A stretch of 49,217 nt of DNA from assembly GCA_024405115.1 (NCBI GenBank), contig JAKSPD010000009.1:1-49217 (forward strand), read 5' to 3'. This DNA is from Lachnospiraceae bacterium. Its GTDB lineage: Bacteria; Bacillota; Clostridia; Lachnospirales; Lachnospiraceae. The position numbers and the translations under genes were made by a program. Below, one piece after another: positions 4,721-16,862 of the stretch. Within the stretch, counting starts at the first letter, position 1; every line of letters starts with the position of its first letter. The notes beneath the pieces are model-generated. The model was not told the DNA's origin. It saw nothing but the letters and a program-made list of their open reading frames with translations, and made no database searches.

Positions 4721-6271
4721 TCAGTCAGCAGTCCTCAGGGTGTTGATAAGACGTTCAAAGTCATTGTAACCCCAGATGACAGGTACGGGGTAGAGAGGAT
4801 TTGCCTCCTTGTCTGCCCAGGCGATGATCTGCGGGATGTCCTCGTCCTTTATCATGTCAAGTCCGGCGGGAAGATTCATTTTCTTCTTCATCTCATCCAT
4901 CCATCCGATGAATGCGAGTGCCTTTTCCTCGTTTGTTCCTTTGAAGCCACATTCATCAGAAAGGTCTGCAAGACGGTCATAGACGCTTGAGCCAAACTGA
5001 CGCATTACATGTGGAAGGATAACTGCCATTGCAAGTCCGTGCGGTACGCCGTAAAGACCTCCGAGCGTATGTCCCACGGCATGCACGTAGCCCACGCAGC
5101 CACGTGTGAATGAACGGCCGGCATAGAAGGCGGCCAGCTGCATGTTCTGGCGTGCTTCCAGGTCCTTTCCGTTTTCAAATGCCTTGTAAAGGTTTTCGTA
5201 GATAAGCTTTACTGCCTTCTTTGAAAGGTCCTTTTCCACACTGGTGCAGTATGTCCAGTTAGTATAGCTTTCAACTGCATGGCAGAGGGCGTCGAGACCT
5301 GTTGTCGCAGTAATGAATGGAGGAAGGCCCATTGTGAGCTCCGGATCCAGGACTGCATATTTCGGCAGGATTGCGGGGTCGTTGATGGATGCCTTATGGT
5401 GTGTCTTTGCCTCCGTGATAACAGCTGCAACTGTGGTCTCGGAACCGGTGCCGGAGGTGGTGGGAACTGCCCAGAATGGAACAATCTTCTTATGCACCTT
5501 CAGAATACCCTGAAGCTTTGCAACGGGCTTATTGGGATGTGCGTTCTTTGCTGCAATGCCCTTTGCACAGTCCATCGGTGATCCGCCACCCATGGCGATG
5601 AGGGCCTCACAGCCGTTCTCCTTGAAAAGCTTGAAGCCTGCTTCCACGTTCTCATCCGTGGGATTGGGCTGAATGTCGGAAAACAGGGTGTACTGAAGTC
5701 CTTCTTCCTTAAGGGCTTCAATAAGACCGTTAGGGATTCCAATCTTCATCAGGCCATTATCGGTGACAAGCATTACATTCTTGATTCCCTTTGCCTTAAT
5801 GAGGGCCGGCAGCTTTTTGATTGATCCGGCGCCTTCAATATACTCGGGAGTACGGTAACCCAGAAAATAGTTGGCAACCTTCATGACTCCCTGAAATACT
5901 CTGCAATAAACTCTGCCCATACAGTTCTTCTCCTTTGAATATGCAATATTGTCCGGAACGGTTCCGGGGGTGACCATTGTAAGTGCTTCAATGGGACAGA
6001 CCTTTTCACAGATGCCACATGAGATGCAAGCGGTCTTGTTCGCCATATATGCTACGCTGTGAATATCGCCGTGGAAACGCGGAGGTGTGAGCTTAAGGCA
6101 GTCCCTGGGACAGTTCTCAACACACACGCTGCAGCCGGCGCAGCTGATATAATCAATATAGGGTGTCTTCTTTACGGCAGGCTTTTTGGGTGCTTCTTTT
6201 ACGGCACCTGCCTTATCGGCGGTAGCCTTTGCCTCGGAAGTCTTTACTTCGGATGATGTGTTTTCCTGCAT
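4721..6271 (-). CDS. Ferredoxin domain fused to iron-containing alcohol dehydrogenase
   Basis: The 516-residue protein has an unusual layout. A Lys/Ala-rich lead (1-36) is followed by a two-cluster ferredoxin domain with C44, C47, C50, C54 and C82, C85, C88, C92. A group III iron-type alcohol dehydrogenase follows from about residue 140. The dehydrogenase shows the nucleotide motif GGGSPMD (228-234) and the metal ligands Asp327, His331, His401 and His411. It should interconvert an alcohol and an aldehyde with NAD(P)H, and the clusters may pass electrons to or from the oxidoreductase encoded two genes upstream. The ATG at 6271 follows GGAGGG inside the end of the MoaD-like gene, so translation is probably coupled. 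It is the last gene of the operon. The substrate is unknown. Confidence 0.88.
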   Translation of the reverse strand: MQENTSSEVKTSEAKATADKAGAVKEAPKKPAVKKTPYIDYISCAGCSVCVENCPRDCLKLTPPRFHGDIHSVAYMANKTACISCGICEKVCPIEALTMVTPGTVPDNIAYSKEKNCMGRVYCRVFQGVMKVANYFLGYRTPEYIEGAGSIKKLPALIKAKGIKNVMLVTDNGLMKIGIPNGLIEALKEEGLQYTLFSDIQPNPTDENVEAGFKLFKENGCEALIAMGGGSPMDCAKGIAAKNAHPNKPVAKLQGILKVHKKIVPFWAVPTTSGTGSETTVAAVITEAKTHHKASINDPAILPKYAVLDPELTMGLPPFITATTGLDALCHAVESYTNWTYCTSVEKDLSKKAVKLIYENLYKAFENGKDLEARQNMQLAAFYAGRSFTRGCVGYVHAVGHTLGGLYGVPHGLAMAVILPHVMRQFGSSVYDRLADLSDECGFKGTNEEKALAFIGWMDEMKKKMNLPAGLDMIKDEDIPQIIAWADKEANPLYPVPVIWGYNDFERLINTLRTAD

Positions 6272-6276
6272 AATGC

Positions 6277-6531
6277 TTACCCTCCACAGACGGGACTCAT
6301 CAGCATGACGGTGTCGCCGTCCCTCAATGCGGCATTTTTGCCGGTCTGCTTATCATTTACCACGACTATGCAGCCGTCTATGTCTTTTGCCGTGACTTTT
6401 GTTCCGGGTTTGACGCGTTTTGCCTCCGCCAAAAGCAGGGGATACAGGTCACGCACATGTGAGGCCTCCGCCTCCATTTCCTTTATTCCGGTGTCCAGCC
6501 TCAAAAGACCGAAAACTTTTACATGAACCAT
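6277..6531 (-). CDS. MoaD/ThiS-family sulfur carrier protein
   Basis: This is an 84-residue ubiquitin-fold protein ending in Cys-Gly-Gly. The C-terminal di-glycine is adenylated and thiocarboxylated when MoaD donates sulfur for pyranopterin dithiolene formation. I start it at the ATG at 6531, which follows AAAGGAGGG. A longer frame back to 6558 would overlap the end of the oxidoreductase gene. It sits between the oxidoreductase and the alcohol dehydrogenase fusion. This placement suggests a carrier dedicated to the tungsten cofactor rather than to thiamine. Its activating enzyme is probably the ThiF-like protein at 13014-13685. A tungsten-dedicated role is inferred from context. Confidence 0.85.
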   Translation of the reverse strand: MVHVKVFGLLRLDTGIKEMEAEASHVRDLYPLLLAEAKRVKPGTKVTAKDIDGCIVVVNDKQTGKNAALRDGDTVMLMSPVCGG

Positions 6532-6544
6532 TGAATCCCCTCCT

Positions 6545-8479
6545 TTAAATGATGCCAAGCTTTTTGAGCGTCTTTTCCGTGGGAATGCCGTTCTGGTCCC
6601 AGCCCCTTGCCTTATAGTATGTCTTCTTCATACGCTCAAGCGGAACCTTTGTCTTTGGATTTTTGGGATCCTGCGGGGTATCTGTAAGACGCTTCGGAAG
6701 GGTGTCACGTTTACTGCTTACGCCAAACTTAGCATTAACGGCACGCTCTAAGCTGTAGCTTCTTTCTCCAATACGTATGTATTTTCCAAAGGTCATGGGC
6801 ATGCCCAGTGCCTTCTTAAAAAGCTTTGTGTGATGGAATACCGGGAGGTGTATTCCAAGTGCGGGAGAGGTACGGTTAATGAGACGGAGCACCCCGCCGA
6901 TTGCAGGTACGGCCTTATTAATCATCTTTGTCACGAAACTGTTGGGACGGGTGATCAGAAAGCCCGGGAAGAATGCATAGGAGGTGAAGAGGCACTGTCC
7001 GCTTGCGGAAATTGTCTCCATCAGGTCCTGGAAGAGCATGGTGAAGTCCGCCTTTGCATGAGGCGTCTGCGGATCAGCGAAAAGTCCAAGGCCTTCCACG
7101 ATTACGAGATATCCTCCGTTTAAGTGGCATCCGCCACGGTTGCTTACCGCATAACCGAGTCCCTGTCCGACAGCCCTACGCGGCTCATATGCCGCAAGTT
7201 CCATTCCCTTTGACTGGATTGCAAACTCCATGCCACCGTATTTTTCTGCAAGGCGCATGCTGCCTTCAGCAAGCTCATCGCCGATGCCCCTCCGGTGTGC
7301 GATGTCGTCCCAGACCTGAGAGATGCCTTCAGTATTTCCAAAGGAAAGCCCGTTGTTCCAGAGTCCCTTTTCATTTGCCTCCATTGCCCAGGCAAGTGTT
7401 GAGCTTGCAGATATGGTGTCCATGCCCAGCTCATCAATCTCATTATTCCATTTGAGGATGCTGTACATATCACTGTTGAGGATGCCACCGCCCAAAAGTC
7501 CGAGGGTTTCAAGCTCCGGACCTTTTACCTCGCGGTTTTCAACCTTTACGGTACGTGCGCACTTGATGGGGCAGGTGAGACAGCCCTTATTAACTATGTT
7601 AAACTCTTCAGCCAGTGTTTCGCCGTTTACTTCCTCAAAGTGCTCATAACGGCCAAACTGGTAATTCTTTGTTGAAAGCATGCCGCGCATCTGCATCTGG
7701 GAAACAAGTCCCGCTGTTCCAAGACGCGGCAGCTGGTTTCCGGTAAGCGGATGGTTTTTAAGATAACGGAACCATTTCTTGTTCCATTCCTTTGTGGCCA
7801 CAGGGTCTGCGACCGCAACCATCTTGTTGCCGTTTACGGTGATTGCCTTAAGGTTCTTGCTTCCAAATACCGCACCCACGCCTCCGCGTCCTGCCGCACG
7901 CTCATCTGAAATGACGCATGCGTAACGGACAAGGTTTTCTCCCGCAGGGCCGATGGTCAGCTGGGCAAACTTTGTTTTCTTTCCGTTTCTTAAGCCCATC
8001 ATCAGTTCCTGAAGCTTTTCCTGGCTTTCACCAGTCTTAAGTCCCCAGAGACCGTCCTCATCCGCGTTGTGGAGAATGAATTTTCCGTTATTTATCTCAA
8101 GCCAGGAATGCTCACTGCATTTTCCACGAAGGATAAGGGCGTCCAGTCCGGCTTTTTTAAGATAGTAGCCGAAACGCCCGCCACAGTTTGAAGATGTGGT
8201 TATTCCTGTTAATGGTGATAAGGTGGAAATGTTGAAACGGCTCGATGAAGGAGCCCCGGTTCCCGTGAGCGGGCCTGTGGAAATGATGAGAAGGTTTTCT
8301 TCACCGTAAGGGTCTTCCTTACCGGTAAAGCAGTCGTACATGATCCTGGAAGCCATTGCCTTTCCGCCCAGGTAAAGGGCGCGTTCCTTATCGGTCCAGG
8401 GATATTCCTTTGCGGTTCCTGTGGTGAGATCATACTCCATCACAAGCCCCATATAGCCGCCTTTGTAGTCCGTACTCAT
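6545..8479 (-). CDS. aor: Aldehyde:ferredoxin oxidoreductase, tungsten-dependent
   Basis: This 644-residue enzyme of the AOR family carries a tungsten bis-pyranopterin cofactor and one [4Fe-4S] cluster and oxidises aldehydes to acids with ferredoxin. The family features are present in order. The N-terminal pterin-binding domain includes STGPLTGTGAPSSSRFN and DERAAGRGGVGAVFGSKNLK. The cluster motif CLTCPIKC lies near residue 298, and a further Cys is in the GGCHLNGGY segment. The length is slightly above the archaeal enzymes. The ATG at 8479 follows TGGAGGTC. A TTG four codons earlier is less likely. It heads the operon with the MoaD-like and alcohol dehydrogenase genes, opposite a full cofactor and tungstate-uptake operon. 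The aldehyde substrate cannot be told from sequence. Confidence 0.95.
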   Translation of the reverse strand: MSTDYKGGYMGLVMEYDLTTGTAKEYPWTDKERALYLGGKAMASRIMYDCFTGKEDPYGEENLLIISTGPLTGTGAPSSSRFNISTLSPLTGITTSSNCGGRFGYYLKKAGLDALILRGKCSEHSWLEINNGKFILHNADEDGLWGLKTGESQEKLQELMMGLRNGKKTKFAQLTIGPAGENLVRYACVISDERAAGRGGVGAVFGSKNLKAITVNGNKMVAVADPVATKEWNKKWFRYLKNHPLTGNQLPRLGTAGLVSQMQMRGMLSTKNYQFGRYEHFEEVNGETLAEEFNIVNKGCLTCPIKCARTVKVENREVKGPELETLGLLGGGILNSDMYSILKWNNEIDELGMDTISASSTLAWAMEANEKGLWNNGLSFGNTEGISQVWDDIAHRRGIGDELAEGSMRLAEKYGGMEFAIQSKGMELAAYEPRRAVGQGLGYAVSNRGGCHLNGGYLVIVEGLGLFADPQTPHAKADFTMLFQDLMETISASGQCLFTSYAFFPGFLITRPNSFVTKMINKAVPAIGGVLRLINRTSPALGIHLPVFHHTKLFKKALGMPMTFGKYIRIGERSYSLERAVNAKFGVSSKRDTLPKRLTDTPQDPKNPKTKVPLERMKKTYYKARGWDQNGIPTEKTLKKLGII

Positions 8480-8704
8480 GGAGACCTCCAAAATAGGTTA
8501 ATGTAGTAGGATATGCATGAAAATTTACCGTTTGATTGTATCATATGTCATTAAATAAAGATAGCTGTTTTTGATGAAAATGCACAGAATTCATGGAAAG
8601 AAAATAAAATAATTATGCAAACCGACAAATTACTGTCGAATTTTCGGGAAGTTTATGATATGATACAGAAGTCGTAAAATGTGTCTTATAATAGTGGAAT
8701 TTTT
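8480..8704. promoter_or_regulatory. Divergent promoter region, aor / moaA
   Basis: This short AT-rich region feeds both tungsten operons. A TATGAT at 8659-8664 and a TATAAT at 8687-8692 are possible -10 boxes toward moaA, with poor -35 boxes. On the minus strand TACAAT around 8532-8537 may serve aor. I found no Moco/Tuco-type riboswitch here, because the leaders are too short. Confidence 0.4.
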
Positions 8705-9655
8705 ATGAAGGACAGTTTCGGAAGGGAAATCACATATCTCAGGCTTTCGGTCACGGATCTCTGCAACTTAAGGTGCCGCTACTGCATGCCCAAAGAGGGC
8801 GTGTGTCTAAGAAGACATGAGGAAATGCTTACAGAAGAGGAGATGACCGATGCCGTCACGGTGGCGGCGGAACTGGGAATCCGTAAGGTGCGGATTACAG
8901 GCGGTGAACCCCTGGTAAAGAAGAACATCCTTTCAATCTGTAAAAACATTTCACATGTTCCGGGAATCGAGGAAGTGTGTCTTACGACAAACGGGACGCT
9001 GCTTTCTAATATGGCGGCGGATCTTAAAGCCGCAGGCATCCAGAGGATAAATATAAGTATCGACACCCTTAATGAGGAAAAGTATTCAGAAATCACGCGG
9101 GGCGGAAGGCTTAAGGATGCCCTTTGCGGAATTGAGGCCGCATTAAATGCAGGTTTCGAAAAAGTTAAGCTTAACACGGTACTTATTGGCGGTTTTAACG
9201 ATGATGAGATTAAGGCTCTTGCGGAGCTTACGAGGGAAAAGGACCTTGATGTGCGCTTTATCGAGCTGATGCCGATGCTTTCAGACAGTGGTTTTGGGGA
9301 GGATGCCTTTATTCCGGTGGGAACGGTTAAGGAAAAACTGCCAGAAGTCATATTCCTTGGAAGGGACGGCGTGGCGGAACTCATGAAGCTTCCGGGGGCA
9401 AAGGGAAACATCGGGCTTATAAGTCCTATAAGCTGCCGTTTCTGTGCCTCCTGCAACAGGTTAAGGCTTACTGCGGACGGAAAAATTAAGCCATGCCTTC
9501 ACAGCCCCCTTGAATATGACATAAAGGGTCTTAAAAGGGAACAGATGAAGGACAAAATGAAACAGGCGATCCTTGCAAAGCCGGAAAGCTACGGGAAGCT
9601 TTCGTATGCGGACAGAAGCTGTGCCGGAAGGACGATGGACAGGATTGGAGGATAG
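8705..9655 (+). CDS. moaA: GTP 3',8-cyclase MoaA
   Basis: This is the radical SAM enzyme that starts pyranopterin synthesis by rearranging GTP. The 316 residues contain the N-terminal cluster motif CNLRCRYC, preceded by the typical YLRLSVTD. The second-cluster motif CRFCASCNRLRLTADGKIKPC lies near the C-terminus (first and last Cys about 16 residues apart). The C-terminal GG needed by MoaA is also present. I start it at the ATG at 8705 because family members begin with M-x-D-x-x-GR. A GTG at 8681 is possible. Neither start has a clear ribosome site, and a TATAAT at 8687 raises the possibility of a very short leader. It is the first gene of the cofactor operon and abuts the next gene. Confidence 0.93.
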   Translation: MKDSFGREITYLRLSVTDLCNLRCRYCMPKEGVCLRRHEEMLTEEEMTDAVTVAAELGIRKVRITGGEPLVKKNILSICKNISHVPGIEEVCLTTNGTLLSNMAADLKAAGIQRINISIDTLNEEKYSEITRGGRLKDALCGIEAALNAGFEKVKLNTVLIGGFNDDEIKALAELTREKDLDVRFIELMPMLSDSGFGEDAFIPVGTVKEKLPEVIFLGRDGVAELMKLPGAKGNIGLISPISCRFCASCNRLRLTADGKIKPCLHSPLEYDIKGLKREQMKDKMKQAILAKPESYGKLSYADRSCAGRTMDRIGG

Positions 9656-9656
9656 G

Positions 9657-10586
9657 ATGGGATACACCGCAGCTGTAATAACGGTAAGTGATAAAGGGTC
9701 AAGGGGAGAACGCGAGGATAAAAGCGGTCCTGCCCTGTGTGCCCTGCTTAGTGAAAATGGATATAAGGTGCGTCATACCGCCATTGTGCCTGATGAGGCG
9801 GAGGCAATATGTAAGGAGCTTCTTTTATGCACGGATGATCTTGGGATACAGCTGGTCCTTACGACGGGAGGAACCGGATTTTCACCTCGTGACATAACCC
9901 CGGAGGCTGCGGAGAGCATGTTCCAAAGAAGAGTTCCCGGAATTCCGGAGGCTATGCGTGCTGAAAGCATGAAAATCACCCCAAAGGGGTGCCTTTCCAG
10001 AAGCACCGCTGGGATAAGGGGAAGGTCCCTGATAATTACGCTTCCTGGAAGTCCAAAGGCTGCAGTGGAAAACCTTAAGCCGGTTTTACCGGCTGTTGAG
10101 CACGGGCTTTCAATGCTTCTTTCAGAAGGGTCTCAAGACTGTGCTGAACCAATGAATCCCGCAGGCGGCATTGAGCATAAGGAAATCAGATGTAAGGGCA
10201 CGGTCCCCTCGGTCGATTCATGGATAGCTGAAGCAAGGAAAAGCCCTGAAGCATCAGGAATAGGAGTGTTTTTAAGTCATCATGGAATAGTCCGGATAAG
10301 CTCAAGAAAGGAAGCGAGGGAAGGCATACCCACAGCACCTGTGGCCGCAATGCTTTTGACACCCGACTTTGAAAAGGTGGCAGAGGCGGAGAAAAAGGCC
10401 GGCATGATGGAGGGGGTACGGTATCTGAGGCTGTGGGTCAATGAGGGGCGGCTTTTAGTGGGTGATGACATCATGAAGGTGCTTGTGGGTGCGGACACAA
10501 GACCCCATGCGGAGAAGGCGCTTCTTACCCTGGTGGAAACACTTAAGAAGGAATGCATTCATGAGGAGGAAATTTTCCGGGAGTAG
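9657..10586 (+). CDS. MogA/MoaB domain fused to MoaE-like domain
   Basis: The 309-residue protein joins two cofactor steps. Residues 1-165 are a MogA/MoaB fold, which adenylates the pterin, with AVITVSDKGSRG and the TTGGTGFSPRDITPE motif. Residues about 180-309 match short MoaE-like proteins: SHHGIVR, then LWVNEGRLLVGDDIMKVLVG and an LKKE tail. This short type is known beside tungsten and molybdenum enzymes in anaerobes. The classical MoaE catalytic lysine region is not recognisable, so it may be a regulatory or altered synthase subunit. The ATG at 9657 follows TTGGAGGATAGG at the very end of moaA. I rejected an upstream Met at 9573, which would overlap moaA heavily. Confidence 0.85.
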   Translation: MGYTAAVITVSDKGSRGEREDKSGPALCALLSENGYKVRHTAIVPDEAEAICKELLLCTDDLGIQLVLTTGGTGFSPRDITPEAAESMFQRRVPGIPEAMRAESMKITPKGCLSRSTAGIRGRSLIITLPGSPKAAVENLKPVLPAVEHGLSMLLSEGSQDCAEPMNPAGGIEHKEIRCKGTVPSVDSWIAEARKSPEASGIGVFLSHHGIVRISSRKEAREGIPTAPVAAMLLTPDFEKVAEAEKKAGMMEGVRYLRLWVNEGRLLVGDDIMKVLVGADTRPHAEKALLTLVETLKKECIHEEEIFRE

Positions 10587-10642
10587 AAGCACCCGTGAAA
10601 ATATATAAAGGAAACGTTTTTAATCAGTTTTAGGAGGAAAGT

Positions 10643-11692
10643 ATGAAAAGAGTCTTATCAGTAGTTCTGGCAACTGTTTTAGCGTTGTCACTTGCAGCCT
10701 GCAGTAATGCACAGACACAGGCCACTACGACACCTGCAACCACGGCTGCCCCCACGACCACGGCGGCACCGGAAACTACAAAAGCTCCGGAAACAGAACC
10801 CGCAGCACCAAAGGTTGATCTGCAGATCCTTTATGAACAGGATAATTCCATGATCAATACCTATACGCTCATGTGCGTGAATCCTGATGCACCGTTTGTT
10901 GACGCTGACGGTAAGGAAGTTAAGGATGTGGCGCTCAATACCATTGGCGCGGAAGCACTGATCAACTTCCTCCTTTCCGAGGAAGGGGAAAAGCTTGCGG
11001 CTGGTTACGGATATGAAGAGTACGGCGAGTATCTTTTCTATCTCCTGGACGATGCCCCGGTATCAAGGGCGGAGATTCCTGCAGCCACGGAGGAAACTAA
11101 GCAGATCCGTCTTTCAACCACAACCTCAGTCAAGGACTCCGGTCTTTTGGGCTACATTATTCCTATCTTTGAGGAAAAATACGGATATTCGATTGAGGTG
11201 TATTCTGCAGGAACAGGAAAGTCCATCGCCAATGCGAAGATGGGAAATGCTGACCTTATCCTCGTTCATGCAAAATCACAGGAAGAGGATTTCGTAAGCG
11301 CAGGCTTTGCCAAAAAGCTTGACAACATGGAGAAGGAACGCATGAGCTTCATGTACAACTTCTTCGTGCTCTGCGGACCATTCTTGGATCCTGTTGGAGT
11401 AAAGGAATGTGCAACGGTTAAGGATGCCTTTAAGAAGATTGCCGATGAAAAGGCAGTGTTCATCTCAAGAGGTGACGGTTCAGGAACACATACGAAGGAA
11501 CTGTCACTCTGGCCTGAGGAACTTGGCATAAAGGCAGAGCCTGAAAGCTTTGCAAAATATACTGACTGGTACACATCGGCGAATGCAGGCATGGGCGTGT
11601 GCCTCACGATGGCTGAGGAGATGGGAGGATATATCCTTTCAGACAAGGCTACATATCTTACATTCCGTGCAAACGGTGGCATCATGCAGTAA
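10643..11692 (+). CDS. tupA: Tungstate-binding lipoprotein, TupA-like, circularly permuted
   Basis: This is a 349-residue lipoprotein with a signal peptide and lipobox LAAC (Cys20), then a Thr/Pro/Ala-rich linker (24-56). Residues 152-349 match the N-terminal and middle part of TupA: STTTSVKDSGLL (159-170), GTGKSIANAKMGNADLILVHA, SRGDGSGTHTKE (275-286) and ANAGMGV. The protein stops at the segment normally followed by the TupA C-terminal lobe. That lobe, LYEQDNSMINTYTLMCVNP..LSEEGEKLAAGYG, is instead found at residues 60-135, before the N-terminal part. The order is thus permuted. It should bind tungstate outside the membrane and deliver it to TupB/TupC. TAGGAGGAAAG precedes the ATG. Molybdate specificity cannot be excluded. 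Confidence 0.86.
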   Translation: MKRVLSVVLATVLALSLAACSNAQTQATTTPATTAAPTTTAAPETTKAPETEPAAPKVDLQILYEQDNSMINTYTLMCVNPDAPFVDADGKEVKDVALNTIGAEALINFLLSEEGEKLAAGYGYEEYGEYLFYLLDDAPVSRAEIPAATEETKQIRLSTTTSVKDSGLLGYIIPIFEEKYGYSIEVYSAGTGKSIANAKMGNADLILVHAKSQEEDFVSAGFAKKLDNMEKERMSFMYNFFVLCGPFLDPVGVKECATVKDAFKKIADEKAVFISRGDGSGTHTKELSLWPEELGIKAEPESFAKYTDWYTSANAGMGVCLTMAEEMGGYILSDKATYLTFRANGGIMQ

Positions 11693-11712: not shown

Positions 11713-12399
11713 ATGAAGACCGCATTCGCCAAAGCAATTGAACTTATTCTTTCGGGAAGCCCGGAACTTTTAAACATCCTTGCCACCACGGCAAGGATGA
11801 GTCTTTCGAGTTCATTAATCGCACTTTTGCTGGGGGTTCCAATCGGCATCCTTTATGGTGCGGTAAGGTTTCCCGGAAGGACTCCTCTTGTTGTCATTAA
11901 CAGGACACTTACAGGAATGCCCCCGGTGGTGTGCGGCCTTCTTTTCTATCTTCTTTTCTCAGGTGTGGGGCCTTTTGGCAAAATGAAGCTTCTGTTTACG
12001 GTAAAGCTCATGATCATCGCACAGGTAGTGCTGATTACCCCCATTGTGATAGGAAGCATGGAGACATTTGTTTCCGGGATAGCGGCTCCGGTGAGGGAAA
12101 CGGCAAAGGGACTTGGCTTTAATGGAGTCAGGACTTTTTTTCTGCTTGCAAATGAGTCAGTGTACCAGATCTTTTCTTCATATCTTATGGCCTTTGCCCG
12201 TGCCATTGCGGAAGTGGGTGCTGTGAGCATGGTGGGCGGAGCCATTGCATGGAAGACAAACGTAATGACGACGGCAATCATGCAGTATACAAACATGGGA
12301 AACTTCAGTCTGGGAATAGCCCTTGGAATCATCCTGCTTACGATTTCACTTCTCGTAAATATCGCAGTAACACTGCTGCAGGGGAGGCTTTCGTCATGA
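11713..12399 (+). CDS. tupB: Tungstate ABC transporter permease TupB
   Basis: This is a 228-residue inner-membrane permease with about five to six hydrophobic helices. It matches the TupB/WtpB-type family, including the cytoplasmic loop that contacts the ATPase (ETAKGLGFNGVRTFF) and the AFARAIAEVGAVSMVGGAI segment. The loop is the EAA-type motif of oxyanion importers. It begins 20 bases after tupA without a clear ribosome site, so translation may be coupled or start weakly. Its last bases overlap the tupC start as ATGA. With TupA and TupC it forms a complete importer placed inside the tungsten cofactor operon. Confidence 0.92.
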   Translation: MKTAFAKAIELILSGSPELLNILATTARMSLSSSLIALLLGVPIGILYGAVRFPGRTPLVVINRTLTGMPPVVCGLLFYLLFSGVGPFGKMKLLFTVKLMIIAQVVLITPIVIGSMETFVSGIAAPVRETAKGLGFNGVRTFFLLANESVYQIFSSYLMAFARAIAEVGAVSMVGGAIAWKTNVMTTAIMQYTNMGNFSLGIALGIILLTISLLVNIAVTLLQGRLSS

Positions 12400-13049
12400 G
12401 GATAAATGCTTTTACAAAAACCTACGGAAGCAGGAGGGTGCTTGATTTTCCCGGCTGTGAACTAGAAAGAGGAAAAATATGTGCGGTGATAGGGGCGAAC
12501 GGAAGCGGAAAATCAACCTTTGCCTCCATTCTTGCGGGAACGGTCACTGCAGACGGAAAAGTTGAGACCCTTTCTTCAAAAATAAGCTGCGGTTTCATGC
12601 CACAGAAAAGTTACGCCTTCAGAATGAGCGTGCTCAGAAACATCCTCCTTAATGGAAATGATTTAAAGAAAGCAGAGCGCGTGCTCAATGAACTTTCCCT
12701 TATGGAACTTAAAAACGCCGGTGGAAAGACATTAAGCGGCGGCGAGACGGCGAAGATGGCGCTGGCAAGGCTTTTAGTGAGGCATTATGACCTTCTGATA
12801 CTTGACGAACCCTGTGCCTCCATGGACATGAAGGGTACGATTGCCGCGGAAAGGCTGATTACCGAGTATGCTCAGAAAGAAAATGCGGCAGTCATCTTAG
12901 TGACGCATTCCCTTGCACAGGCTAAACGCATGGCTTCCTGCATCTTGTTTTTTGATGATGGAAAATTAAATGATGACCCTGAAAGGATGGAGGAATTCCT
13001 AAGGTTTTACGGGTCAGATAAGGGAGACCCAGGAAATGGAGGGATCTGA
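12396..13049 (+). CDS. tupC: Tungstate ABC transporter ATP-binding protein TupC
   Basis: This 217-residue ABC ATPase has Walker A GANGSGKST, signature LSGGE and Walker B LLILDEP, followed by a switch histidine in VTHS. It is short, as expected for the TupC type, without the C-terminal anion-sensing domain of ModC/WtpC. The ATG overlaps the tupB stop codon (ATGA). A longer in-frame start upstream would run deep into tupB. The last 36 bases overlap the convergent ThiF-like gene. Neighbours show it energises tungstate uptake. Confidence 0.9.
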   Translation: MRINAFTKTYGSRRVLDFPGCELERGKICAVIGANGSGKSTFASILAGTVTADGKVETLSSKISCGFMPQKSYAFRMSVLRNILLNGNDLKKAERVLNELSLMELKNAGGKTLSGGETAKMALARLLVRHYDLLILDEPCASMDMKGTIAAERLITEYAQKENAAVILVTHSLAQAKRMASCILFFDDGKLNDDPERMEEFLRFYGSDKGDPGNGGI

Positions 13050-13685
13050 GACTGAACCAAAATAAAGAGTGTCTGCCTTTACCGGGCGCCCAAGCAGATA
13101 CTGTACCAGAAGACTCATCTGCAGGGATGCACAGAAAGCAGCGGTCATCGGAAGGACTGAATGTGAGGGTTCATCGGACTTCTGGCTGTAAAGATGGTGC
13201 AAAAGACCGCTTCCGGGCGAAATGAGGGCAGCCTGATAGCCCCAGCCGCTTATGGCGCCATGAACTAAGGGGTTGGAATATCTTTTGCAGAGGTCTTCCA
13301 GAAGAAGACGGCCGGTGACAGAATCAAGTGCGTCAATTACAGAATCTGCCCCGTGAAGTATGCTTTCAGCATTTTCATTTGTAAGATAGACAGGGAACAT
13401 CCTTACTGTAGTCTCAGGGAATATCTTTTTAATGCGGAGTGAGGCAGCCTCAGCCTTGTTTTTTCCAAGGTTTTCTGAGTTGGAGAGAAGCTGTCGGTTT
13501 AAATTGCTTTCTGTAAAGCAGTCACCGTCACAGACAGTTATCGTTCCGATACCAAGGCGCGCAAGAAATTCGACGGCATAGCCTCCCAGGCCGCCGGCAC
13601 CGATGACGGCCACGTGGCAGCTTCTGAGCATGTCCTGTTCTGATTCTGTGATTGATGGTATGTTACGTTCCAGCCTCGGTTCCAT
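13014..13685 (-). CDS. ThiF/MoeB/HesA-family adenylyltransferase
   Basis: This is a 223-residue E1-like protein that should activate the C-terminal glycine of a sulfur carrier, here plausibly the MoaD-like protein at 6277-6531. The nucleotide motif AVIGAGGLGGYAVEFLARLG and the following DGDCFTESNLNRQLL match the family, as does the DALDSVTGR segment. The CxxC zinc pairs of classical MoeB are absent, and it is shorter than MoeB, resembling HesA/TcdA-like short forms. I start it at the ATG at 13685, preceded by GAGAGGTG. A longer frame would run antisense through moeA. The gene is antisense within an otherwise rightward operon and overlaps the tupC end by 36 bases. Confidence 0.87.
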   Translation of the reverse strand: MEPRLERNIPSITESEQDMLRSCHVAVIGAGGLGGYAVEFLARLGIGTITVCDGDCFTESNLNRQLLSNSENLGKNKAEAASLRIKKIFPETTVRMFPVYLTNENAESILHGADSVIDALDSVTGRLLLEDLCKRYSNPLVHGAISGWGYQAALISPGSGLLHHLYSQKSDEPSHSVLPMTAAFCASLQMSLLVQYLLGRPVKADTLYFGSVSDPSISWVSLI

Positions 13686-13743
13686 GTGAACACCTCTCAC
13701 CGCCTTCTGGCGGATTATTATAATATGGAGTATAAAGTTAAAA

Positions 13744-14961
13744 ATGCTTATTGTAAAGACACCGGAAGAAGTATTTGAAATCATAAACAGTGTATTTGGA
13801 GAACGGATGGAAACGGAGGAGGTTTCTCTTTCGGATGCCCTGGGACGCGTCCTTTCCGAGGATGTGTGTTCCACGGAGCATGTGCCCGGATTTGACCGCT
13901 CCACTGTTGACGGGTATGCCGTAAAGGCTTCGGATACATTTGGATGTTCTGACAGTATTCCGGTTGTCTTAAGTCTTTTGGATGAAATCCGTATGGGCGA
14001 GGAGGCTTCGGAGTGCCTGAAACCCGGTGAGGCCGCTTATATCCCCACGGGAGGCGAACTTCCAAAAGGGGCTGACGGTGTGCTGATGGTTGAGTATTCC
14101 GAGCTGTACGGGGACGGTACCGTGGGTGTGCTGTGTCCGGTGTCTCCCGGTGAAAATGTGATCTTCCGCGGGGACGACATACGGACGGGGGAAAGGCTTC
14201 TTTCAAAAGGAAGTGTTCTTAATACGGCACAGATTGGTGCCCTGGCTGCCATAGGAAAAACAAATGTGCCGGTAAAGAAAAAGCTTAGTGTGGGCATACT
14301 GTCCACCGGGGATGAGCTTGTTCCTTCGAGCGATGTTCCGGGACCGGGACAGGTCCGGGACGTGAATTCCCGGATGCTTGAATCCTTTGTGATTGGTAAT
14401 TATGCGGAAGCTGTATGTTACGGAATCATACGTGATGATAAGGAAGAAATCGGAAGGACTTTGGATATTGCACTTTCAGAGTGTGACCTTGTCCTTATTT
14501 CCGGTGGGAGCTCTGCAGGACTTAAGGATACGACTGCAAAGATAATTGAGGAACGTGGGGAGCTTCTGTTTCACGGCATTGCCATGAAGCCTGGAAAACC
14601 CACGATACTTGGGAATGCAGGGGGAAAGCCGGTAATGGGACTTCCGGGACATCCGGGTGCGGCATTTTTTGTGGCACAGCTTTTTGTGACTGCGCTGCTT
14701 GACCGCCTATACGGAAGAAAGCAAAGTGAGTTTCCGGTAAAGGCAGTTCTTTCAGAGCGCGTTCCATCAAATCACGGAAGGGCGCAGTACGTGGGAGTGA
14801 GCCTCAGGGAGGAAAATGGAATCCTTTTTGCTGACCCGGTCCATTCCAAATCGGGTCTCATAACGACCATTGCGCGGGTATGCGGTTATTTTGCGATTGA
14901 CAGGGACCGTGAAGGTCTTGAAAAAGGGGAGGAGATTGAGGTATGGCGTTTCAGTATCTGA
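13744..14961 (+). CDS. moeA: Molybdopterin molybdenumtransferase MoeA
   Basis: This 405-residue MoeA inserts the metal into adenylated pterin. The full domain set is visible: an N-terminal lobe with PGFDRSTVDGYAVKASD, the GEAAYIPTGGELPKGAD motif, the MogA-like fold with GILSTGDELV and SGGSSAGLKD, then GIAMKPGKP and GLPGHPGAAF, and the beta-barrel C-terminal domain. The start at 13744 is 58 bases from the divergent ThiF-like gene, so it probably has its own promoter in that AT-rich gap. Its last 19 bases overlap the next moeA gene, so the two are coupled. Together with the second moeA it may provide a tungsten-selective insertase. Confidence 0.94.
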   Translation: MLIVKTPEEVFEIINSVFGERMETEEVSLSDALGRVLSEDVCSTEHVPGFDRSTVDGYAVKASDTFGCSDSIPVVLSLLDEIRMGEEASECLKPGEAAYIPTGGELPKGADGVLMVEYSELYGDGTVGVLCPVSPGENVIFRGDDIRTGERLLSKGSVLNTAQIGALAAIGKTNVPVKKKLSVGILSTGDELVPSSDVPGPGQVRDVNSRMLESFVIGNYAEAVCYGIIRDDKEEIGRTLDIALSECDLVLISGGSSAGLKDTTAKIIEERGELLFHGIAMKPGKPTILGNAGGKPVMGLPGHPGAAFFVAQLFVTALLDRLYGRKQSEFPVKAVLSERVPSNHGRAQYVGVSLREENGILFADPVHSKSGLITTIARVCGYFAIDRDREGLEKGEEIEVWRFSI

Positions 14962-16862
14962 CAAACACTGCGCTTTCAAAGGCACAGGAGGAATACCGCA
15001 ACGAACTTTTAAAATGCGGTTTTCGTGCGGTACCGGAAACCGTACCGGTACAAAATGCACTTGGAAGGATTACAGCAGGGGCAGTCTATGCCCATATCTG
15101 TGCCCCGCATTATCCGGCAGCGGCCATGGACGGCATCGCCATTAAGGCATCTAAAAGCTTTGGTGCAACGGAAACCACCCCGGTCGTTCTGAAGAAGGAA
15201 GACTATGTGACGGTGGATACCGGGGACCCGCTTCCTGAAGGCTGTGACGCCGTGATCATGGTGGAGGATGTGCTTTATGAGGAGGACGGCAGCGTAAGGC
15301 TTTATGCCGGAGCGGCACCCTGGCAGCATGTCCGTCAGGTGGGAGAGGACATATGTGCGGGCGAGATGATCCTTTCATCAGGAATGCGCATAAGCCCTTC
15401 TGCAATCGGCGCGATGCTGGCAGGAGGAGTGCTTACTGTCAGTGTATGGAAACAGCCCGTTGTGGGAATAATCCCTACAGGAGATGAAATCATACCTCCC
15501 ATATCCGACCCCGGCCCCGGGGACATTATTGAATTTAACTCGTCAATTTTTTCAGGGATGCTTACTGAATGGGGCATGGTATCAAAGACATACCCAATCG
15601 TCATGGACCGTTATGAGCTTATAAGGGAAGCACTTATTAAGGCTGCGCAGGAATGTGACATCGTCCTTTTAAATGCAGGTTCATCTGCAGGACGTGACGA
15701 TTATTCAGCGAAAGCCATTGCTGACTGCGGAATCGTTTTATTTCACGGTATCGCCATCAAGCCCGGAAAACCGGCAGTCCTTGGAAGGATCGGGAACCGT
15801 CCGGTCATCGGTGTTCCGGGATATCCTGTTTCCGGAATCCTTGTTCTGGAACTGTTTGTGAAACCGCTTCTGGAAATCTGGTACGGATGTAAAGAGACAG
15901 GAGAAGAGGGAGAAAGGGAAGCAGAGGCCACACTTTCAAGGGCAGTCGTTTCCGGTCTTAAGTATGAGGAATTTGTACGTGTCCGCATGGGCGTGGTGGG
16001 GGATAGACTCATTGCGACTCCCTTAAACCGTGGCAGCGGAATGGTCACTTCATTCATGAAGGCTGACGGCATCATGCGGATTCCTCAGGGAACAGAAGGA
16101 TATGCGTCAGGCGAAAAGGTTAATGTAAAGCTTTTTAAACCGATTGAGACGCTTAAAAACACCCTGGTTGCAATTGGAAGCCATGACCCTCTATTAGACG
16201 AACTATCGGAACTTCTGCATGCCAGTGAGCCGGAACTTTACCTCGGCTCAAGCCATGTGGGATCCATGGGGGGAATCATGGCAGTGAAACGTGGGGAGTG
16301 CCACCTTGCGGGAACACACCTTCTCGATGAGAAGGATGGGAGCTATAACAGTTCATATATAAGGAAGTATTTCCCGGACGGCGGTGTAAGGCTTCTGGAA
16401 TGCGTGGGACGTGTTCAGGGAATCATGGTGCAGAAGGGTAATCCTCTTCACATATCGGAAATCGGCGACCTGAGCCGCCCGGGGCTACGTTATGTAAACC
16501 GGCAGAAAGGTTCCGGCACAAGGGTGCTTATGGATTACCTCTGCAAAAAGGAAGGCATTGACACGAAAAATATATACGGATATGAACGTGAGGAACTTAC
16601 GCACACCTCCGTGGCGGCGCAGATTGCAAACGACACCGCGGATGCCGGAATGGGGATACTTTCCGCAGCAAAGATATACGGCCTTGACTTCATTCCCATA
16701 TGCCTGGAACAGTATGACCTTCTGATTCCGGATGAGGCATGGGAGCTTTCACAGATGCAGAAGCTTATAGAAGTCTTAAAGAGTGACGCATTCCGTAAAC
16801 GCCTCATGGAGATGGGCGGTTATGAATTAAAGGAACCCGGAAGGGTAATGGAAAGGTTTTAA
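14943..16862 (+). CDS. MoeA with C-terminal periplasmic-binding-like domain
   Basis: The 639-residue protein has a MoeA portion (1 to about 405) with PAAAMDGIAIKASKSFG, TGDPLPEGCDAVIMVED, GIIPTGDEI, AGSSAGRDD, GIAIKPGKP and GVPGYPVSG. It then has a PBP-like domain (about 410-639) with SHDPLLDELSELL, ECHLAGTHLL, the RQKGSGTRVL stretch and NDTADAGMGI. The second domain belongs to the PBP_like type found fused to MoeA or to ModE-like regulators. It has no signal peptide, so it acts in the cytoplasm, perhaps as an oxyanion or cofactor sensor. The ATG is within the end of the first moeA. The MoeA part is more diverged than the first copy. Confidence 0.92.
   Translation: MAFQYLTNTALSKAQEEYRNELLKCGFRAVPETVPVQNALGRITAGAVYAHICAPHYPAAAMDGIAIKASKSFGATETTPVVLKKEDYVTVDTGDPLPEGCDAVIMVEDVLYEEDGSVRLYAGAAPWQHVRQVGEDICAGEMILSSGMRISPSAIGAMLAGGVLTVSVWKQPVVGIIPTGDEIIPPISDPGPGDIIEFNSSIFSGMLTEWGMVSKTYPIVMDRYELIREALIKAAQECDIVLLNAGSSAGRDDYSAKAIADCGIVLFHGIAIKPGKPAVLGRIGNRPVIGVPGYPVSGILVLELFVKPLLEIWYGCKETGEEGEREAEATLSRAVVSGLKYEEFVRVRMGVVGDRLIATPLNRGSGMVTSFMKADGIMRIPQGTEGYASGEKVNVKLFKPIETLKNTLVAIGSHDPLLDELSELLHASEPELYLGSSHVGSMGGIMAVKRGECHLAGTHLLDEKDGSYNSSYIRKYFPDGGVRLLECVGRVQGIMVQKGNPLHISEIGDLSRPGLRYVNRQKGSGTRVLMDYLCKKEGIDTKNIYGYEREELTHTSVAAQIANDTADAGMGILSAAKIYGLDFIPICLEQYDLLIPDEAWELSQMQKLIEVLKSDAFRKRLMEMGGYELKEPGRVMERF

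Follow-up and report, generated by a model that had tools for sequence, protein, structure and literature searches.

The tupA gene and its neighbourhood

The window, i.e. the whole stretch of 49,217 nucleotides that was analysed, carries on its + strand an intact ORF (10643..11692) for a tungstate-type substrate-binding lipoprotein of 349 amino acids, annotated here as a circularly permuted tupA since its two blocks match TupA in reversed order. The gene is preceded by a ribosome-binding site read from the sequence (AGGAGG, 10632..10637, +). As the original prediction had it, a lipobox and a Thr/Pro linker stand ahead of the displaced part: the signal peptide (10643..10702, +) ends in LAAC (Cys20) and is followed by a tether rich in Thr, Pro and Ala (residues 21-56; 10703..10810, +). 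Then comes the moved block (residues 57-139; 10811..11059, +), equivalent to the C-terminal block of ordinary TupAs, a profile of which scores 49.3 bits over residues 60-136. The new joint, at which the former C- and N-termini meet (residues 140-151; 11060..11095, +), reads VSRAEIPAATEE in the window protein and VSTAEIPAATEE in the consensus of the permuted clade, across which these residues are well conserved; it also lies in a confidently modelled region, as judged by pLDDT. The core (residues 152-349; 11096..11689, +) corresponds to the first ∼180 residues of ordinary mature TupA, with 208.6 bits against a core profile over residues 156-344, and carries TTTS at 159-162, H209, R276, T282 and D334.

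Only 20 bases separate the tupA stop from the start of tupB, which leaves no room for a lost C-terminal piece. The product of tupB (11713..12399, +) is an ABC permease, with 172 bits against the NCBIfam model ABC_perm1 (cut-off 100) and 137 bits, below the cut-off of 320, against tung_perm_TupB. The ABC ATPase gene that follows (12396..13049, +; Pfam ABC_tran) is named tupC by position. Upstream lie moaA for pterin cofactor synthesis (8681..9655, +; Pfam Radical_SAM and Mob_synth_C) and a moaB/mog-like cofactor gene whose start codon is provisional (9573..10586, +; Pfam MoCF_biosynth). Downstream of tupC are a ThiF/MoeB-like gene with a listed start that is probably too long (13014..13904, -; Pfam ThiF), moeA (13744..14961, +; matched by NCBIfam molybdopterin biosynthesis models, the whole-protein ones below cut-off) and a moeA fused to a PBP-like domain (14943..16862, +; Pfam MoeA_N, MoCF_biosynth, MoeA_C and PBP_like, with NF011068 over its cut-off). 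In agreement with the original prediction, the neighbouring tupB, tupC and moa genes support a tungstate role, and MoeA-PBP is reported to accompany TupA in 86% of cases (PMC11733289). The succession in 13744-16862 of a moeA and, directly after it, a moeA-PBP fusion is an observation in its own right; its PBP-like domain (PF12727) and TupA are members of one broad superfamily.

On the opposite strand, an aldehyde ferredoxin oxidoreductase of the tungsten enzyme family (6545..8491, -; Pfam AFOR_N and AFOR_C) is the likely user of the imported metal, its product being the only AFOR_N match in the window's own genome, which is 78.5% complete. A gene for an iron-containing alcohol dehydrogenase adjoins it (4721-8491 for the two, - strand), and it is plausible that both enzymes form an alcohol/aldehyde/acid pair dependent on imported tungsten. 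No ModA over cut-off was found in this same 78.5% complete genome; one weak ModA match, C41, was judged from its sequence to be an ordinary iron-type binding protein. The window gave no Rfam match at gathering thresholds, and hence no sign of a known cofactor riboswitch.

Block order and distribution of the permuted form

The original prediction placed the C-terminal end of TupA at residues 60-135 and its beginning and middle at residues 152-349, with the stop codon following directly. Alignment with a TupA of known structure agreed with this: in a phmmer search, PDB entry 3muq was matched by two stretches in reversed order, query residues 153-342 on chain residues 5-179 and query residues 57-109 on chain residues 181-235. 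Taken alone, the front stretch gave weak matches (i-Evalues of 0.17 for 3muq, 15 for 3lr1 and 1200 for 5my5). The profile databases see the core only: Pfam PBP_like_2 covers residues 148-342, and the NCBIfam TupA profile NF041772 matches residues 151-344 (118 bits) on positions 13-192 of its 266. The window protein is below the curated cut-off of 400 bits of the latter profile, but so are four ordinary Clostridial TupAs (214.5-272.7 bits), and the cut-off therefore does not separate permuted from ordinary proteins. What does differ is the extent of the match, which in the four ordinary proteins forms one stretch from 12-16 to 261-264 of 266 and in three other permuted ones runs from 14-15 to 192-193 only; a colinear match along the whole profile was found neither for the window protein nor for those three.

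For a systematic comparison, 46 intact permuted proteins (window included) were set against 60 ordinary TupAs. Another six loci, of which five belonged to the permuted group, were excluded as partial or frame-broken. The window protein, whose core is 34-50% identical to the 60 ordinary TupAs, matched both blocks in 36 of them by blastp (E≤1e-5), in swapped order in all 36, and the large block only in the remaining 24. The C-terminal blocks of the ordinary proteins, less two of aberrant length (58 of 60), then served to build a C-block profile. This profile matches the front block of all 46 permuted proteins, with scores of 33.4-58.9 bits and a largest i-Evalue of 6.5e-11, at least one of these matches spanning only part of the profile; among 920 composition-shuffled front blocks, 27 matched at all, with 12.0 bits at best. 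A chance origin of the front-block match is excluded by this comparison of sequences. The match, weak for the window protein by itself, is made certain because the front blocks of its relatives match the ordinary C-terminal profile. The core profile gives 191-224 bits in 46/46, and every one of the 46 reading frames stops 0-4 residues past the last aligned residue. The boundaries proposed for the front part are thus borne out with slight extension, to 57-139, and so is the halt of the protein after the TupA middle. The reversed block order is real and inherited.

A scan of genome contigs revealed 39 loci, 35 of them intact in permuted order and included in the set of 46; among the other four, two are permuted with broken frames (L064 and L067), one is cut by a contig end with the order still visible (L065) and one is cut with the order not visible (L066). 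By title the 39 come from metagenome-assembled or uncultured bacteria, mostly Oscillospiraceae/Ruminococcaceae and many from ruminant guts, with no cultured isolate evident among them. In whole genomes the permuted form is patchy (7/397 in the family sample, 2/25 in the genus, 4/392 in the order and 4/391 in the class), and 13 other genomes of the family sample match in the core part only. Once their overlap is discounted, these samples hold 11 different genomes with the permuted form, counting that of the window; one of the 11, G167, is known from a cut copy alone. In the phylum sample a TupA match was present in 187 of 398 genomes, with no other permuted form among the matches listed by E-value; the best match after the window's own starts at query residue 90. 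An ordinary-order TupA was not found as second match in the 10 other genomes with the permuted form (thresholds of 1e-8, or 1e-5 for the genus). The window's own genome (78.5% complete) gave 10 further matches, all confined to query residues 1-102, which are mostly signal peptide and tether; the TupA core was not reached by any of them. Likewise, in the plasmid collection the permuted form was not seen: 116 records matched, none over 80% of the query. One genome, G356, holds two permuted copies; the second (L125:5496-6518, on G356:C5) is diverged, being 62% identical to the window's protein, and has no tupB, tupC or cofactor gene within its 14-kb stretch.

In a tree of all 106 proteins, the permuted ones re-ordered before alignment, the 46 permuted TupAs group together in a single clade (SH-aLRT 100), with one change of block order. 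A tupB lies downstream on the same strand in 44 of the 46 loci, with gaps of about 13-266 bases; it is only partly readable in L030 and L041, the sequence of L049 is cut off by the end of its contig, and L029 is a permuted tupA standing by itself, with no tupB or tupC nearby. Among the TupB partners of permuted TupAs, the 42 for which 150 amino acids or more could be read constitute one clade (support 100) and are 54-78% identical to the window TupB; the 50 readable TupBs that accompany ordinary TupAs are 34-48% identical to it.

Predicted fold, lobe topology and lipid anchor

AlphaFold was run twice, with the window protein and with the protein of L061 as lead sequence, and gave mean pLDDT values of 90.8 and 90.6 and pTM values of 0.84 and 0.86, with nearly identical secondary structure; the runs share 30 sequences and hence are not independent. 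The two segments that hold the joint (protein residues 134-153, i.e. model residues 81-90 and 91-100) have mean pLDDT values of 93 and 97 in the first run. A single compact fold is thus predicted for the permuted protein. The six best Foldseek matches of the model are TupA chains, 3lr1, 3muq and 5my5 among them, and a Type I (Cluster B) fold was not found at this level; among the 50 matches listed there is presumably no Type I sugar receptor, if each belongs to the class in which we take it to be. Foldseek follows chain order, and its alignments span only 190-196 columns of the TupA structures, with TM-scores of 0.37-0.62 by target length.

In the published description of Desulfovibrio alaskensis TupA, lobe A comprises residues 2-76 and 201-251, the central strand residues 77-89 and lobe B residues 91-200 (PMC5517513). 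We transferred these limits through the 3muq alignment, in which by our own count the chain number is the mature number plus 23. This puts the cut inside lobe B, ahead of the lobe's final segment and between residues 180 and 186 in mature numbering; residue 74 of the window protein corresponds to Y201. By this mapping the moved block would consist of the last lobe B segment (57-73) and the second half of lobe A (74-139), and the chain order would be lobe B segment, second half of lobe A, joint, first half of lobe A, central strand and lobe B. Both interlobe crossings would be retained and none added, and both termini, with any lipid anchor, would be shifted from lobe A to lobe B. The claim of the original prediction that the lobe order is reversed therefore needs amendment: the order of the blocks is swapped, but with the published lobe limits the lobes are not simply exchanged. 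Two residues of the crossing segment, N72 and Y74, are kept in 46/46 permuted and 59/60 ordinary proteins. Separately, the permuted proteins have three extended segments, each of them longer in every one of the 46 than in any ordinary TupA of the 60: window residues 80-101, window residues 209-237, and the stretch from the Trp of LSLWPE to the Trp of DWY. Typical lengths, permuted versus ordinary, are 22 versus 11, 29 versus 22 and 20 versus 12-13 residues.

The lipid anchor itself is not a constant feature. A lipobox was found automatically in 33 of the 44 readable permuted N-termini and was absent from 11; by eye, with L056 added, about 12 of the 44 have a signal peptide without lipobox cysteine (L032, L033, L036, L037, L042, L044, L045, L046, L047, L049, L054 and L056), and their tether is short or missing. 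The automatic call errs on L056 and on several ordinary rows, the check by eye covering the permuted rows only. Parsimony on the automatic labels (11/44 without lipobox) gives 8 changes on the tree; loss of the anchor seems to have occurred several times within the permuted clade. With about a quarter of the N-termini in this state, a lobe B anchor is not general. For the permuted glucose receptor Tp0684, its authors mention adaptation to tethering as a possible reason for permutation (PMC4990184). Such an adaptation is not clearly supported for TupA, because the permuted order persists in members with no evident lipid anchor.

Function, origin and relation to known systems

The residues linked to the oxyanion in D. 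alaskensis TupA are given as T9-T11, S12, H59, R118, T124 and D170 (PMC5517513); their equivalents, window residues 159-162, 209, 276, 282 and 334, are invariant in 46/46 permuted proteins. The moved block is under purifying selection: for 10 chosen pairs dN was 0.024-0.172, dS 0.46-1.69 and dN/dS 0.02-0.13, and core dN/dS was similar in the nine scoreable pairs. The conserved residues, the operon and the neighbouring cofactor and tungsten-enzyme genes support a tungstate role, so that the permuted protein most likely is a functional tungstate receptor for TupBC and probably binds tungstate itself, although selectivity for tungstate over molybdate is not readable from sequence. Overall, we hold it to be highly probable that the gene is a circularly permuted TupA acting as receptor of a TupABC tungstate importer. 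According to the model that we favour, a single ancestral rearrangement in Clostridia would have linked the former C- and N-termini by a short conserved joint, the chain having been opened inside lobe B, directly ahead of its last segment. The chain would then begin in lobe B, cross to lobe A, complete it, return by the central strand and finish in lobe B. With the two interlobe crossings preserved, the clamshell should remain able to close around the oxyanion, which would be held by TTTS and His of lobe A together with the Arg, Thr and Asp of lobe B. The two termini, plus the lipid anchor where present, would sit on lobe B; TupB being a single permease gene and expected to act as a homodimer, docking may tolerate an anchor on either lobe.

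Could the front block instead be an unrelated added domain, joined to a TupA that has lost its C-terminal end? The window protein alone might suggest so, with a best front-block i-Evalue among the three solved TupAs of only 0.17 and with no PBP part detected by Pfam when residues 1-152 were submitted alone. But the ordinary C-terminal profile matches the front block in 46/46 proteins, one confident fold was predicted twice (pTM 0.84 and 0.86) and the crossing-segment residues N72 and Y74 are conserved on both sides of the comparison; we regard the idea as very improbable. Hardly any credence at all is due to an assembly error, a frameshift or a pseudogene mimicking a permutation. It is true that the 39 scanned loci are by title metagenome-assembled or uncultured genomes and that two of them, L064 and L067, have broken frames, but 46 intact copies from many separate assemblies share the same order and a conserved joint, dN/dS is low and a C-terminal lobe lost by frameshift after residue 349 would have to fit into the 20 bases before tupB, with all 46 frames ending 0-4 residues past the alignment.

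The remaining alternatives concern the origin of the blocks and the ligand. The usual route to such permutations is tandem duplication, fusion and trimming, and no permutation intermediate was found among the examined loci. Tandem tupA genes were considered as half-way forms: L121 (G894) has two adjacent TupA-like ORFs of 293 and 366 amino acids, and L122 and L123 have two each within their respective stretches. In all three the second ORF shows no separate front-block match and 29-33% identity, and was taken for a diverged paralog. This want of a tandem or half-way form would also suit a fusion of pieces from two TupA paralogs, as would the fact that the nearest ordinary rows differ by block, L096, L095 and L016 leading in mean core score and L108, L016 and L090 in mean C-block score. 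Against this, L016, of the same family, appears in both rankings (third by core, second by C-block) and is the nearest ordinary row in the joint tree, sister to the 46 (support 92, at a point where long branches meet), which is compatible with a rearrangement within one gene although it does not prove it. Paralog fusion is unlikely on balance, yet is the alternative to be taken most seriously. Somewhat less likely still, the permuted protein is an oxyanion receptor with a preference for molybdate or some other ligand, or it serves as a sensor. The three lengthened segments (typically +11, +7 and +7 residues) could change specificity, and no transporter genes surround the isolated copy L029; on the other hand, every residue named as important in D. 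alaskensis TupA is retained, and an aldehyde ferredoxin oxidoreductase and a MoeA-PBP, which goes with TupA in most reported cases, are close.

The permuted TupA is a clean natural circular permutation within one functional family, in which both blocks are clearly homologous, the order has by the tree a single origin and the partner genes are conserved, so that cause and effect are open to study. Nature would here have put to the test whether a binding protein has to be anchored by one particular lobe, and the case bears on which of its ends can carry the tether. For tungstate sensors it supplies a second pair of termini ready for use, and it illustrates how freely transport proteins of this kind can be rewired. 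It also explains why profile searches recognise only two thirds of each such protein; surveys of tungsten use in gut and rumen bacteria may consequently score these proteins as truncated or miss them.

As predicted, no earlier description of a permuted TupA was found in the open-licence literature on permuted binding proteins, TupA and ModA included, and the parts available to us of TupA-rich open-licence papers make no mention of permutation. Natural permutation of a binding protein has a precedent in Tp0684 (TpMglB-2) of Treponema pallidum, a crystallised glucose receptor for which the class ‘Type Ic / Cluster Bc’ was proposed (PMC4990184); the case of TupA is new as far as that literature shows. 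Like the permuted TupA, Tp0684 is a naturally permuted binding lipoprotein of an ABC transporter, and relatives with its topology are reported from Gram-positive gut bacteria. It differs in being of the Type I class, in having a permuted part just 13% identical to its counterpart and in having gained a fourth crossing (PMC4990184), whereas in the permuted TupA both crossings would be kept and none added. Permutation within the wider fold superfamily is also known from the CPSARST survey, which related glycine betaine-binding proteins, molybdate-binding proteins and CysB in this way, at less than 24% identity between proteins (PMC2395249); here, in contrast, the permutation lies within one transporter family, the window protein's core being 34-50% identical to the ordinary members. 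Closest of all are the ordinary TupAs of D. alaskensis (5my5), Geobacter sulfurreducens (3lr1) and Vibrio parahaemolyticus (3muq), which have both blocks in homologous form and the same oxyanion-site residues, and whose TupABC systems use the same kind of partner genes, tupB and tupC. From these the permuted form is set apart by its swapped block order, its new joint, its three longer segments and, judging by homology, termini on lobe B rather than on lobe A.
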